50,640 bases of DNA from Candidatus Pelagibacter sp. (GTDB lineage Bacteria > Pseudomonadota > Alphaproteobacteria > Pelagibacterales > Pelagibacteraceae): positions 91,089 through 141,728 of the forward strand of contig NZJW01000015.1 in assembly GCA_002692055.1 (NCBI GenBank), written 5' to 3'. A program made the translations under genes and the position numbers. The notes under the pieces were generated by a model, which was not told the origin of the DNA, searched no databases, and was given only the letters and a program-made list of their open reading frames with translations. Positions 46,204 to 50,640 of the stretch are shown piece by piece; position 1 is the stretch's first letter, and each line of letters begins with the position of its first letter.

Positions 46204-47643
46204 GTGGAAGATCGATTAAAAGAAGAATGCGGTATATTTGGTGTCTACAACCACCCTGAGGCCTCTGCATTAGTGGCCCTGGGTTTGCACGCCCTACAAC
46301 ATAGAGGACAGGAAGCATGTGGGATTAATTCTTTTGACGGGAAAAATTTTTACTTAGTTAAAAGAAGAGGTCTTGTAGGAGATAATTTTACTGATCCTAA
46401 AATAATAGAACAATTAAAAGGTCATACCGCAATTGGTCATAATAGATACTCTACAACAGGAGCCCCTTTAATAAGAAATATACAGCCTTTTTTTGCGGAT
46501 TTACATACTGGAGGGCTAGGTATAGCTCATAATGGAAATTTAACCAACGCTATTAGCATACGTGAGAAAATGGTTAAAGATGGCGCGATTTTTCAAACAA
46601 CTTCTGATACAGAAACTCTTGTACAACTTATAGCAAAATCAAAAAGGATAAAAACAATAGATAAGATTATTGACGCAATATTTCAAGTACATGGTGGATA
46701 TGCATTAGCAATCATGACTAACAAAAAGCTTGTAGGAGTAAGGGATCCTTATGGTATAAGACCCTTAATATTAGGTAAGCTTAAAAATTCATTTATTTTA
46801 TCGTCTGAAACTTGCGCTCTAGATATTATCGGTGCTGAATTTGTTAGAGAAATTGAGAACGGTGAAATGATAGTAATCGATAAAAACGGAATTGAAAGCA
46901 TTAAACCATTTCCAAAAGTTAAACAAAGGCCTTGTGTTTTTGAATATGTTTATTTTTCAAGACCAGATAGTATTGTCGGTGGAAAAGCTGTTCACGAATA
47001 TAGAAAAAGGTTGGGCGAACAGCTTGCTAAAGAAATTAAAATTGACGCTGATATGGTTTCTGCAGTACCGGATTCTGGCATTCCGGCTGCAATTGGGTAC
47101 TCAAATGAAGCTGGCATACCTTTTGACATGGGTATAATACGAAATCATTATGTTGGACGTACTTTTATAGAACCTACGCAACAAATTAGGCAACTAGGTG
47201 TAAAACTTAAACATAATCCAAATAAAGAAATTATAAAAAATAAAAAACTCATTTTAGTTGATGACTCGATAGTTCGTGGAACAACCTCAAAAAAAATAGT
47301 CGATATGCTTTACAATGCAGGAGCAAAAGAAATTCATTTATGCATTTCTAGTCCGCCAATTAAATATCCAGATTATTATGGTATTGACACACCAAATGTT
47401 AAGGATTTAATTGCTGCAAATCATTCTATTGAAGAGATAAAAAAAATTATTGGGGTAGATACACTTCAATTTTTAAGTATTGATGGATTATATAGAGCAT
47501 TAGGATTTGGAAAAAGAGATAATCAAAATCCACAATTTACAGATCACTGTTTTACTGGTGATTATCCTGTTCGACCGGTAGATCAATTAAATCAATTTGA
47601 AAAAAATAATCAATTATCTTTACTAAGCAATGTTAGATTATAA
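46204..47643 (+). CDS. purF: Amidophosphoribosyltransferase
   Basis: EECGIFGVYNHPEA, LHALQHRGQEACGI, LVDDSIVRGTTSKKIV; GTG start with a short propeptide before the catalytic Cys. Confidence 0.96.
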   Translation: MEDRLKEECGIFGVYNHPEASALVALGLHALQHRGQEACGINSFDGKNFYLVKRRGLVGDNFTDPKIIEQLKGHTAIGHNRYSTTGAPLIRNIQPFFADLHTGGLGIAHNGNLTNAISIREKMVKDGAIFQTTSDTETLVQLIAKSKRIKTIDKIIDAIFQVHGGYALAIMTNKKLVGVRDPYGIRPLILGKLKNSFILSSETCALDIIGAEFVREIENGEMIVIDKNGIESIKPFPKVKQRPCVFEYVYFSRPDSIVGGKAVHEYRKRLGEQLAKEIKIDADMVSAVPDSGIPAAIGYSNEAGIPFDMGIIRNHYVGRTFIEPTQQIRQLGVKLKHNPNKEIIKNKKLILVDDSIVRGTTSKKIVDMLYNAGAKEIHLCISSPPIKYPDYYGIDTPNVKDLIAANHSIEEIKKIIGVDTLQFLSIDGLYRALGFGKRDNQNPQFTDHCFTGDYPVRPVDQLNQFEKNNQLSLLSNVRL

Positions 47644-47645
47644 TT

Positions 47646-48455
47646 TTATGAATAAGGGTTTTTATTATTTATAAATTTTATGATACTAATTTGATTATAT
47701 ATTTTTAATTGTATTAAAACTTGTTTAACAAAAAAATTTTTATAATCTTTACTAAGTGAAGTAAGTCTATTTCCAAAAGCCTTAAATATTATTGGTTTAG
47801 AGTTTACTTGACGTAAAAATTTTATTGTAGGTCTACTTCTTTTATTAAATACCGGTTGATGTTTGGAAATAATATTTTTTAAAACAAGATTAGTGTCCTT
47901 ATTTTTAATTAATTTTTTCGAATTTATATAAATATCATATAACTTTTTTAATAAAAAATCTCTTTTGATATTTTTTAAAGCTGAAATAAAGATAGGTTTT
48001 AAAAGTATATTCGGAAAATTTTTTTCAAAAAAAAATTTAAAATACTCTTCTTTTTTTTTTAAATTTTCTTTTATTAAATCAGTTTTGTTTACAATAACAA
48101 TTATATTTTTAAGTTTATTTAATATTAACCTAAATAACTGCTTATCATTTTTTGTAATCTCATCACTACCATCTAAAATAAAAAGAACTACATCGGATAT
48201 ATTTAGTTTTTTTAATGTTTCTATATTTATTAATTTTTGTTTATATTTATAAGATTTAGATTTTTTTTTTAATCCCCCTAAATCTATTAGATTAATTTTA
48301 AGATCTTTAAATTCTTTAGATAATTCTATTGGGTAAATTGTTGTACCTGAAATTTCACTTACTTTGGAAATACTGCAGTCTGTAATTTTGTTAAAAATTG
48401 TAGATTTCCCAACGTTAGGTTTACCAATGATGCATACGTTTAAATTAGCTATCAT
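47646..48455 (-). CDS. der: Der/EngA-like GTPase with a single G domain plus KH-like domain
   Basis: GKPNVGKSTIFNK, SGTTIYPIE, IDLGGLKKK, NKTDL, then C-terminal KH-like RPTIKFLRQVNSKPIIFKAFGNRLTSLSKDYKNFFVKQV...INNKNPYS; 269 aa; next to bamB. Confidence 0.83.
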   Translation of the reverse strand: MIANLNVCIIGKPNVGKSTIFNKITDCSISKVSEISGTTIYPIELSKEFKDLKINLIDLGGLKKKSKSYKYKQKLINIETLKKLNISDVVLFILDGSDEITKNDKQLFRLILNKLKNIIVIVNKTDLIKENLKKKEEYFKFFFEKNFPNILLKPIFISALKNIKRDFLLKKLYDIYINSKKLIKNKDTNLVLKNIISKHQPVFNKRSRPTIKFLRQVNSKPIIFKAFGNRLTSLSKDYKNFFVKQVLIQLKIYNQISIIKFINNKNPYS

Positions 48456-49712
48456 TAAAATTTAAGAATAGAGTTTTTTGTATTTATAAACAGGTTATTA
48501 TTATAAATAATCAAACTTTCATAGTTTTTTGAAACTCTCGTTTTAGAATATTTACTTAAATTGCTTTTATCTAATGAGAATTTAAAGCCCTTATTATCAA
48601 AAAGATAAATCCATTTATTTCCAATTATTAATTCTTTGAAAAAATTTTTACTATTTTTTTTATCAATAATTTCTAGTTTTTTATTTAACAATAATTTACC
48701 ATCAGATTTGTTCATGATGAAAACTCTGTTTTTCCACGTGTTAACAAGATATTTTCCAGTAATTGCAAACCTGTTCGTTGAATAAATGGGTACTGACCAT
48801 TTTATAAATCCTGATTTAATATCAATGGCATATGTATGACCGTAATTTGTTGATACAAAAATATTACCTTTTCTGTCAACTGTTATTGGACTAGACTTAA
48901 ACAAAAGAGGTGTATTTTCAAAATTACTAGTTTTAAAAATTAGTGACCATTTAATGTTATTTTTTTTAAATCTAAACAGTAAATTTCTGCATTATCGTTG
49001 GTAAACACTAGGTTATTATTGTATATCGCAATCTGGTAGGACTTGCTGTCCTTTAAGTCTTTAGAGGCAGTTTCAAAACTCCAATTCAAATTACCGTTCT
49101 TAGTACTGATGGAGTAAATTTTACTATTACTATTGATTAAAAATAAATTATTACTGTAAATTTTTAAATTAGATTTGAAGGGAACGCCAAAGTTTTTTTT
49201 CCATAATAAATTTAGATTTTCAATGTTAAAACAATGAATATTGCCGAGGTTATCAGAAATAAAAATATTATTTTTATAAGCAATTATTTCAAAATTAACG
49301 TTATAATTTTTATAGATTTTTCTTTTATATATTTTTTTATATTTTAAGGTTTTAAAATTTAAATCTAAAATAGTTACTTTTGATTTATTGTTTATAGTGA
49401 TAATTTTATTATTATAAATTATAAACTTATCAATACTTTTGGATATTGATTTTTTTTTTTGTATAAAGTAATCCCTGTAGGGTATATTAGGTTATTTTTG
49501 TTTTGATTACTTTGTGTCCAATCTTTATATGAATAATACTTGTTTTTACTTAATTTATTAATTTTATTAATATCTTTATTATTTAAATTTTTTTGTTGAA
49601 TTAATATTATTTTTTTTCCTTGATCGGTAAATGACTTAAGGTCAATTAAATTTTCTTTTTTTCCTCCGCATGCAATTAAAAATAAAAAAAAAATACTTAA
49701 AAATTTTTTCAT
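48455..49712 (-). pseudogene. bamB: BamB-like PQQ/beta-propeller lipoprotein, two -1 frameshifts in poly-A tracts
   Basis: N-terminal lipobox MKKFLSIFFLFLIACGG; middle frame (49449-48906) ...NNKIITINNKSKVTILDLNFK...ISDNLGNIHCFNIENLNLLWKKNFGVPFKSNLKIYSNNLFLINSNSKIYSISTKNGNLNWSFETAS...NAEIYCLDLKK; C-terminal IKWSLIFKTSNFENTPLLFKSSPITVDRKGNIFVSTNYGHTYAIDIKSGFIKWS. Adding one A at 49450-49460 and one at 48960-48967 gives one 419-aa ORF. Confidence 0.85.
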
Positions 49713-50278
49713 TTAAAATTTCTTTGAACCTGTTTTGCTTTTTCAAATTGTTTTGATTTGATATAATAATCATATAGTAGTTTAGTTTTAATCAATTTAA
49801 ATTTTTCATTAGTTTTTCCTTTTCTAGAGAAGCTTAAAATCTCATTTTCTTTTATATTATCGAAATTCATAATCATGAATTTTATCTCTATCAATTCTTT
49901 AAACATATTGTTATCGAAATTTTGAGCGTCACTCAAAATTTTTAAAGCTTTTTCTTTATTGTTACTATTGAGATAATATTCAGCCAATTTATTTACCGCT
50001 AATAATCTTGCCGTATCATTACCTTTGTCTTTTAATAAATTTAAAATTTGAATACCTCTAATATCTTTATTGTTTAATAAAATATCTGCTTCAATATATT
50101 TTGAAATAAAATGTTCTTGTTTTTTATTTTGATAGAGAAAAAAAACTTGCAAAGATATTGGTAGTATTATGAGTATAAATATTATCAAAGAGAATATAAT
50201 TTTATTTTTTTTTAAAAAATTAAAAATCTTATCTTTTAACAATTCGTCATTTATTTGTGTTTCTAATTCATTTGACAT
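49709..50278 (-). CDS. YfgM-like tetratricopeptide membrane protein
   Basis: N-terminal cytoplasmic segment, single TM helix, helical repeats; upstream of bamB-der as in other proteobacteria. Confidence 0.65.
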   Translation of the reverse strand: MSNELETQINDELLKDKIFNFLKKNKIIFSLIIFILIILPISLQVFFLYQNKKQEHFISKYIEADILLNNKDIRGIQILNLLKDKGNDTARLLAVNKLAEYYLNSNNKEKALKILSDAQNFDNNMFKELIEIKFMIMNFDNIKENEILSFSRKGKTNEKFKLIKTKLLYDYYIKSKQFEKAKQVQRNFK

Positions 50279-50640
50279 TTAATTATAAATATTTTTTTTT
50301 TCTGGAAATTTTTTATTTCTTACATCCATAGAATACCGTTTTACAGCTTTTTTTATACAACTCCTTAAATTTGAATATTTTTTTACAAATTTTGGTACTT
50401 TTTTAAACATTCCAAGCATGTCCTCTAATACTAAAATTTGGCCATCACACTCATCAGATGCCCCAATACCAATGATGGGTATTTTAGCGTACTTCATGAC
50501 TTCTTTTGCAGTTTGGTATTTAACAGCCTCAAGAACAATTGAAAAAACACCACTTTCCTGAATACTTTTTAAATCATTAATAATTTTATTTTTTTCAAAT
50601 AAGTTTTTTCCCTTAATTTTGTAATCCTTTTTTTGCCTAA
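50279..50640 (-). CDS. panB: 3-methyl-2-oxobutanoate hydroxymethyltransferase, C-terminal part (runs off window)
   Basis: VFSIVLEAVKYQTAKEVMKYAKIPIIGIGASDECDGQILVLEDMLGMF...PKFVKKYSNLR...YSMDVRNKKFPEKK. Confidence 0.9.
   Translation of the reverse strand, partial: RQKKDYKIKGKNLFEKNKIINDLKSIQESGVFSIVLEAVKYQTAKEVMKYAKIPIIGIGASDECDGQILVLEDMLGMFKKVPKFVKKYSNLRSCIKKAVKRYSMDVRNKKFPEKKNIYN

Follow-up and report, generated by a model that had tools for sequence, protein, structure and literature searches.

The window, a 50,640-nucleotide stretch of DNA from Candidatus Pelagibacter sp., carries close to one end a gene for a GTPase that resembles Der (also EngA or YphC) but is about half its size. The genes of the locus and the motifs of the half-size protein are as follows, with invariance counted over 21 half-size sequences.

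46204 to 47643, plus strand: purF, the convergent neighbour of half-size der
47646 to 48455, minus strand: half-size der, single G domain plus EngA KH domain, 269 aa, seen as an ORF and by profiles, one of 30 intact ORFs of 267-281 aa
47649 to 47903, minus strand: EngA-type KH domain, aa 185-269 (PF14714; high-confidence model)
48078 to 48089, minus strand: G4, NKTD, aa 123-126; K124 and D126 invariant, N123 nearly so (n=21)
48273 to 48284, minus strand: G3, DLGG, aa 58-61; D58 and G61 invariant (n=21)
48339 to 48347, minus strand: G2, GTT, aa 37-39; G37 and T39 invariant (n=21), GLT in the second family
48399 to 48425, minus strand: G1 (P-loop), GKPNVGKST, aa 11-19; G11, K12, P13, N14, G16, K17, S18 and T19 invariant (n=21)
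48455 to 49712, minus strand: bamB, immediately upstream of half-size der, in several frames through small indels; BamB is intact in relatives
49709 to 50278, minus strand: YfgM-like gene, the first of the usual yfgM-bamB-der order, named from position and length, with a weak TPR match only
50279 to 50640, minus strand: 3' part of panB, at the window edge

The half-size ORF lies exactly where an earlier note on this DNA had placed it; it starts with ATG (MIANLNVCIIGKPNVGKST) and ends in NKNPYS, and P-loop, DxxG and NKTD are each present in the single copy that the note had read from the letters. The P-loop Asn coordinates K+ in this class of GTPases. A hydrophobic residue directly follows DLGG, as in Era-like GTPases. 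In one relative (L033) TKFD takes the place of NKxD, the single exception. The G domain is recognized by PF01926 (aa 6-124, 79.4 bits) and the EngA-specific KH domain by PF14714 (aa 185-247, 36.3 bits against a cut-off of 27.3), the latter in all 21 half-size sequences. The Der model TIGR03594 aligns aa 5-253 with its positions 176-423 of 432, which covers the second G domain (GD2) and the KH domain and none of the first G domain (GD1). The score stays under the model's cut-off (169.9 versus 306.7 bits), and the best half-size relative reaches 220 bits.

Half-size der and bamB overlap by one base. In nearly all relatives bamB is intact, and its end falls in the span from 29 nt inside the half-size der start codon to 7 nt ahead of it; the two exceptions are the window genome and L022, in which bamB is broken in frame. 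Since bamB is intact in the relatives and ends at the same start codon, no GD1 is concealed upstream, as the earlier note had already read from the adjacent bamB. The era gene of the window draft (G000:C15:9811-10610) lies in two frames and, like bamB, shows the small indels of this assembly. The arrangement in which bamB and der face a convergent purF is kept in LSUCC0530 and in two other closed genomes, which we take to be IMCC9063 and HIMB59 (G085), with one extra ORF in HIMB59. A few kilobases from the der locus, or from its empty site, lies rlmE/rrmJ (L195:1110-1694, L194:10306-10902), which is retained where Der is lost. Deletion of rlmE in E. coli is suppressed by overexpression of Der.

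Half-size genes occur throughout the genus of the window and in other genera, in two families of one order. The 30 intact genes, all of 267-281 aa and all in the same place behind bamB, answer the earlier call for a survey of Der length. Closed chromosomes are among the carriers (G005, G006, G436 and G012, which is LSUCC0530), as are isolate genomes; CP.31 (Pelagibacteraceae) and SCGC AAA028-D10 also have the gene. The genome of LSUCC0530, Ca. Fonsibacter ubiquis, has 1,160,202 bp (PMC6018831). The named carriers, the panB-yfgM-bamB-der synteny and the sequence composition identify the order as SAR11 (Pelagibacterales). The earlier note had named two findings that would count against it, a full Der elsewhere in the genome and a full-length Der in close relatives. 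Profile searches found no full Der in the window genome (871 kb in 21 contigs, 86% complete) and none in the 61 genomes of the order, closed genomes included, so that all 60 relatives lack one. The Der model has eight matches in the closed genome G436. NCBIfam identifies six of them as half-size Der, MnmE, Era, Obg, IF-2 and YchF, and the other two read as LepA and TypA from their sequence and length. Since all eight are known GTPases, this genome has no separate GD1, which answers for G436 the genome-wide search that had been proposed. A split gene, with GD1 encoded apart, was accordingly rejected, there being none upstream and none elsewhere in G436.

The domain that was kept is GD2-like. 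Whole-domain profile scores favour GD2 over GD1 in all 14 half-size G domains compared, by 8.7-60.6 bits. Downstream of NKxD every one of the 14 is GD2-like, with +24 to +49 bits in the window's family. Before DxxG, the second family leans towards GD2 (+12 to +32 bits in six of seven), while the window's family is near neutral (-19 to +23 bits). The second family can be assigned to GD2 clearly, as can the C-terminal half throughout; in the window's own family the signal of the N-terminal half is weak. The resemblance to GD2 proposed in the earlier note thus holds for the domain as a whole and loses force in that one segment. A tree of G domains, with long branches and low-GC composition, rejects neither grouping (p-AU 0.19 with GD2, 0.54 with GD1), and because it could not place the domain, the assignment rests on the profile scores, the continuity with the KH domain and the fold. 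The near-equal scores before DxxG in the window's family, joined to a GD2-like part after NKxD, are what would be expected of a recombination hybrid with a GD1 N-terminal and a GD2 C-terminal part. Such an origin is improbable, since the N-terminal part of the second family leans to GD2 in six of seven cases, the whole domain scores higher for GD2 in all 14, and drift at low GC alone could blur the signal. It concerns the origin of the domain and is compatible with the explanation preferred below.

The AlphaFold model of the half-size protein (pLDDT 88, pTM 0.85) has its best PDB matches in EngA, first of all the ribosome-bound B. subtilis chains 9bsl_W (TMq 0.85, 2.6 Å over 265 columns) and 9bs0_W. 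The comparison by HMM and structure that had been suggested therefore gives a Der GD2 and KH profile match together with the EngA GD2-KH fold. Profile, synteny, structure and the order-wide survey all support the earlier reading of a half-size Der composed of GD2 and KH, with no GD1 elsewhere.

Selection has preserved this protein. In 13 of 14 pairs dN/dS of half-size der is 0.035-0.13; the remaining pair, which is very close, has 0.20. Several of the synonymous distances behind these values are large and hence rough. Over the 21 sequences the GTP-binding motifs are invariant or nearly so, despite an identity of only 25-29% between the second family and the window protein. Since dN/dS is low and these motifs are held across two families, half-size Der has been kept for use in its lineages. 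Purifying selection of this kind, read from coding sequence, shows a gene in use and is neutral as to its mode of use.

The wider distribution in SAR11 adds a further stage. The half-size Der profile is found in 26 of 248 genomes of the order, from three genera in the window's family and three in the second. Era, too, is found in 26 of these 248. The carriers are the same but for the window genome, in which Era is in two frames, and the draft G044, with Era and no Der found. Both are absent from the remaining genomes of the 248, which belong mostly to genus g4, presumably Pelagibacter. Genomes of f1 genera that lack both are G010, G023, G031, G346, G352, G008, G009, G011, G016 and G024, with several closed chromosomes among them. 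The Der-less G008 has an intact panB-yfgM-bamB, with the end of bamB one base away from the convergent purF; this junction is the der site of LSUCC0530 and IMCC9063. The Der-less genomes form one clade in the PurF tree (100/99), so one loss episode suffices and the correlation of Der with Era amounts to a single event. EngB (YihA), which is likewise a GTPase of 50S assembly, was found in none of 19 SAR11 genomes tested and is present in HIMB59.

HIMB59 itself was taken up as a second half-size case on the strength of an E-value, and was rejected as such, since its Der has two domains with a decayed GD1. The protein has 417 aa and scores 182 bits over positions 5-431; its GD1 has GKVNEGKS and DTPG and no NKxD. 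Like the half-size carriers, HIMB59 (G085, L151, L194) has a small low-GC alphaproteobacterial genome and a bamB-der-purF neighbourhood; unlike them, it retains a GD1. This looks like a parallel and less advanced decay. Two further proteins, L150 (G274) and L152 (G342), also have two domains and a degenerate GD1 without NKxD. Era was not found in HIMB59 or in G274.

The history of Der in SAR11 is one of reductive evolution, from two switches to one and then to none. The earlier note caught the middle stage only, after which the order loses Der wholly, together with Era, in one clade. We lean towards a stepwise dismantling of the GTPase checkpoints of ribosome assembly, in which EngB went early, Der was reduced to a functioning enzyme with one switch in the common ancestor, and Der and Era were lost in Pelagibacter. 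From the same facts the half-size gene could be taken for a remnant that now does little and is being lost, with its absence in Pelagibacter as the end point: Der was found in none of the Pelagibacter-clade genomes sampled, one of which has bamB and purF directly side by side, and GD1 has decayed in HIMB59. That reading is unlikely in the face of dN/dS values mostly of 0.04-0.13 and of GTP-binding motifs that are invariant over two families.

The near-perfect co-occurrence of half-size Der and Era over 248 genomes could also mean that the protein has taken on a different role, such as one in 30S assembly in step with Era. This is less likely still, since one loss on one branch explains the whole pattern, which is then one independent datum, and no other sign of a new role was seen. 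Half-size Der may nonetheless moonlight in 30S assembly.

That the protein is itself Era, or another Era-family GTPase, is very improbable. Era likewise consists of one G domain and one KH domain, and the sizes agree. Its KH domain belongs to another family, however, it acts on the 30S and not the 50S subunit, and it is encoded by a separate gene in the same genomes. The Der model gives 170 bits and the Era models 57-76 bits, the latter on the G domain only and under their cut-offs (TIGR00436, 57.2 versus 116.25; NF000908, 75.9 versus 237). The EngA-specific KH domain is found in 21 of 21, and an Era-type KH is absent from the Pfam matches of half-size Der. Era matches the predicted structure at only 0.56, against 0.85 for EngA. 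The Der profile, the EngA KH domain, the separate Era, the fold and the der locus together refute an Era identity for the family. Models for EngB/YihA, MnmE, Obg, HydF and FeoB score 46.3, 61.3, 36.7, 66.3 and 33.8 bits, far below their cut-offs. An assembly artefact or pseudogene, with the first half of der missing from this draft only, has next to no chance of being true: small indels do occur in the draft (several frames in bamB, two in era), but the half-size gene is intact in 30 separate genomes, has low dN/dS and is abutted or overlapped at its start codon by bamB in relatives, and its presence on closed chromosomes refutes the idea.

Half-size Der is thus a der by descent and by locus that falls outside the family definition. 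The name Der refers to a double GTPase, and members of Der/EngA/YphC, such as E. coli Der and B. subtilis YphC, have about 430-510 aa and two tandem G domains, whereas half-size Der has about 270 aa, one P-loop, one DxxG and one NKxD, no GD1, and 170 bits where 306.7 are required. It shares with them the PF14714 KH domain, GD2 with intact GD2-type G1 to G4 motifs, the place behind bamB and the GD2-KH fold of ribosome-bound EngA. It is best filed as a one-G-domain variant derived from Der that probably works like GD2-KH. Its domain content is also that of the laboratory GD2-KH forms of EngA from B. subtilis and T. maritima and of chloroplast DER deleted for GD1; those are artificial truncations, whereas half-size Der is natural and has been kept over an order.

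Within the class and the phylum this is unusual. Der over the cut-off is found in 275 of 289 alphaproteobacterial genomes and in 394 of 398 Pseudomonadota genomes of at least 95% completeness; it is missing from SAR11, from HIMB59 and from a few others. At the 40 loci inspected from a scan of genome contigs, proteins from outside SAR11 nearly all have two-domain length. The exceptions are L058, a 310-aa frame on a 4-kb contig, and L077, the half-size Der of 'Flavobacteriales' RS431 (PBVH01000004.1), which was rejected as a case outside the order since its contig has the SAR11-type order panB-yfgM-bamB-half-size der and is mislabelled or mis-binned. Two alphaproteobacterial drafts, G209 (f124, 1.2 Mb, 100% complete) and G169 (f111), have only an Era-like Der match and are possible independent losses of Der. 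The freely accessible literature searched describes neither a natural single-G-domain Der nor the loss of Der and Era in SAR11.

The half-size gene is, in all likelihood, the true der of SAR11 after the loss of GD1, with GD2-KH most likely still serving as a one-switch factor of late 50S assembly. On the ribosome, GD1 of EngA lies near the L1 stalk, GD2 in the space of the P-site and KH towards the peptidyl transferase centre (PTC), according to Zhang 2014 as cited in PMC13278734. In the closed state GD1 closes over the KH domain and touches it (PMC8696166). On the simplest view, der would have lost GD1 in an ancestor of the order. With GTP and K+ bound, GD2 would then dock in the P-site space and bring KH towards the PTC, and hydrolysis of GTP would release the protein. 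Without GD1 the protein would lack both the contact close to the L1 stalk and the closed conformation, in which GD1 holds on to KH. We infer from this scheme that half-size Der binds the 50S subunit, acts as a GTPase and runs a one-switch cycle.

Published work on EngA bears on this model from both sides. Isolated B. subtilis GD2-KH binds nucleotide normally and its GTP hydrolysis is stimulated by K+, being about 150 times slower than that of GD1 without K+ (PMC3466195), and the work of B. subtilis YphC in rRNA maturation and folding needs no hydrolysis (PMC12560758). Since GD2-KH binds nucleotide and hydrolysis is dispensable in YphC, GD2-KH could handle the PTC work by itself. In E. coli, deletion of der is not rescued by P-loop mutants of either domain (Bharat 2006, as cited in PMC3883289), and chloroplast DER without GD1 co-fractionates partly with the 30S instead of the 50S subunit and associates loosely with the ribosome (PMC3883289). 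The need for both P-loops and the behaviour of the truncated DER speak against the one-switch model. SAR11 must either have adapted or have an assembly pathway which no longer needs the task of GD1; that one clade went on to lose der altogether speaks for the second. Loss of the second switch would have been tolerated because the pathway was already simplified.

A step thought to need two switches can evidently proceed with one or none, and half-size Der would alter the two-switch view of 50S assembly. A natural and selected one-G-domain Der beside Der-less sister lineages provides a ready comparison for the role of GD1, offering small one-switch enzymes whose hosts, LSUCC0530 and strains of subclade IIIa, are in culture, with Pelagibacter as a source of ribosomes built without Der or Era. 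If the stepwise reading is true, half-size Der would be a surviving intermediate in which 50S maturation proceeds on GD2-KH alone, and the most abundant bacteria of the ocean would build their ribosomes while lacking two factors regarded as essential. The case also shows that free-living bacteria whose genomes are being streamlined can lose factors that are treated as universal and essential.
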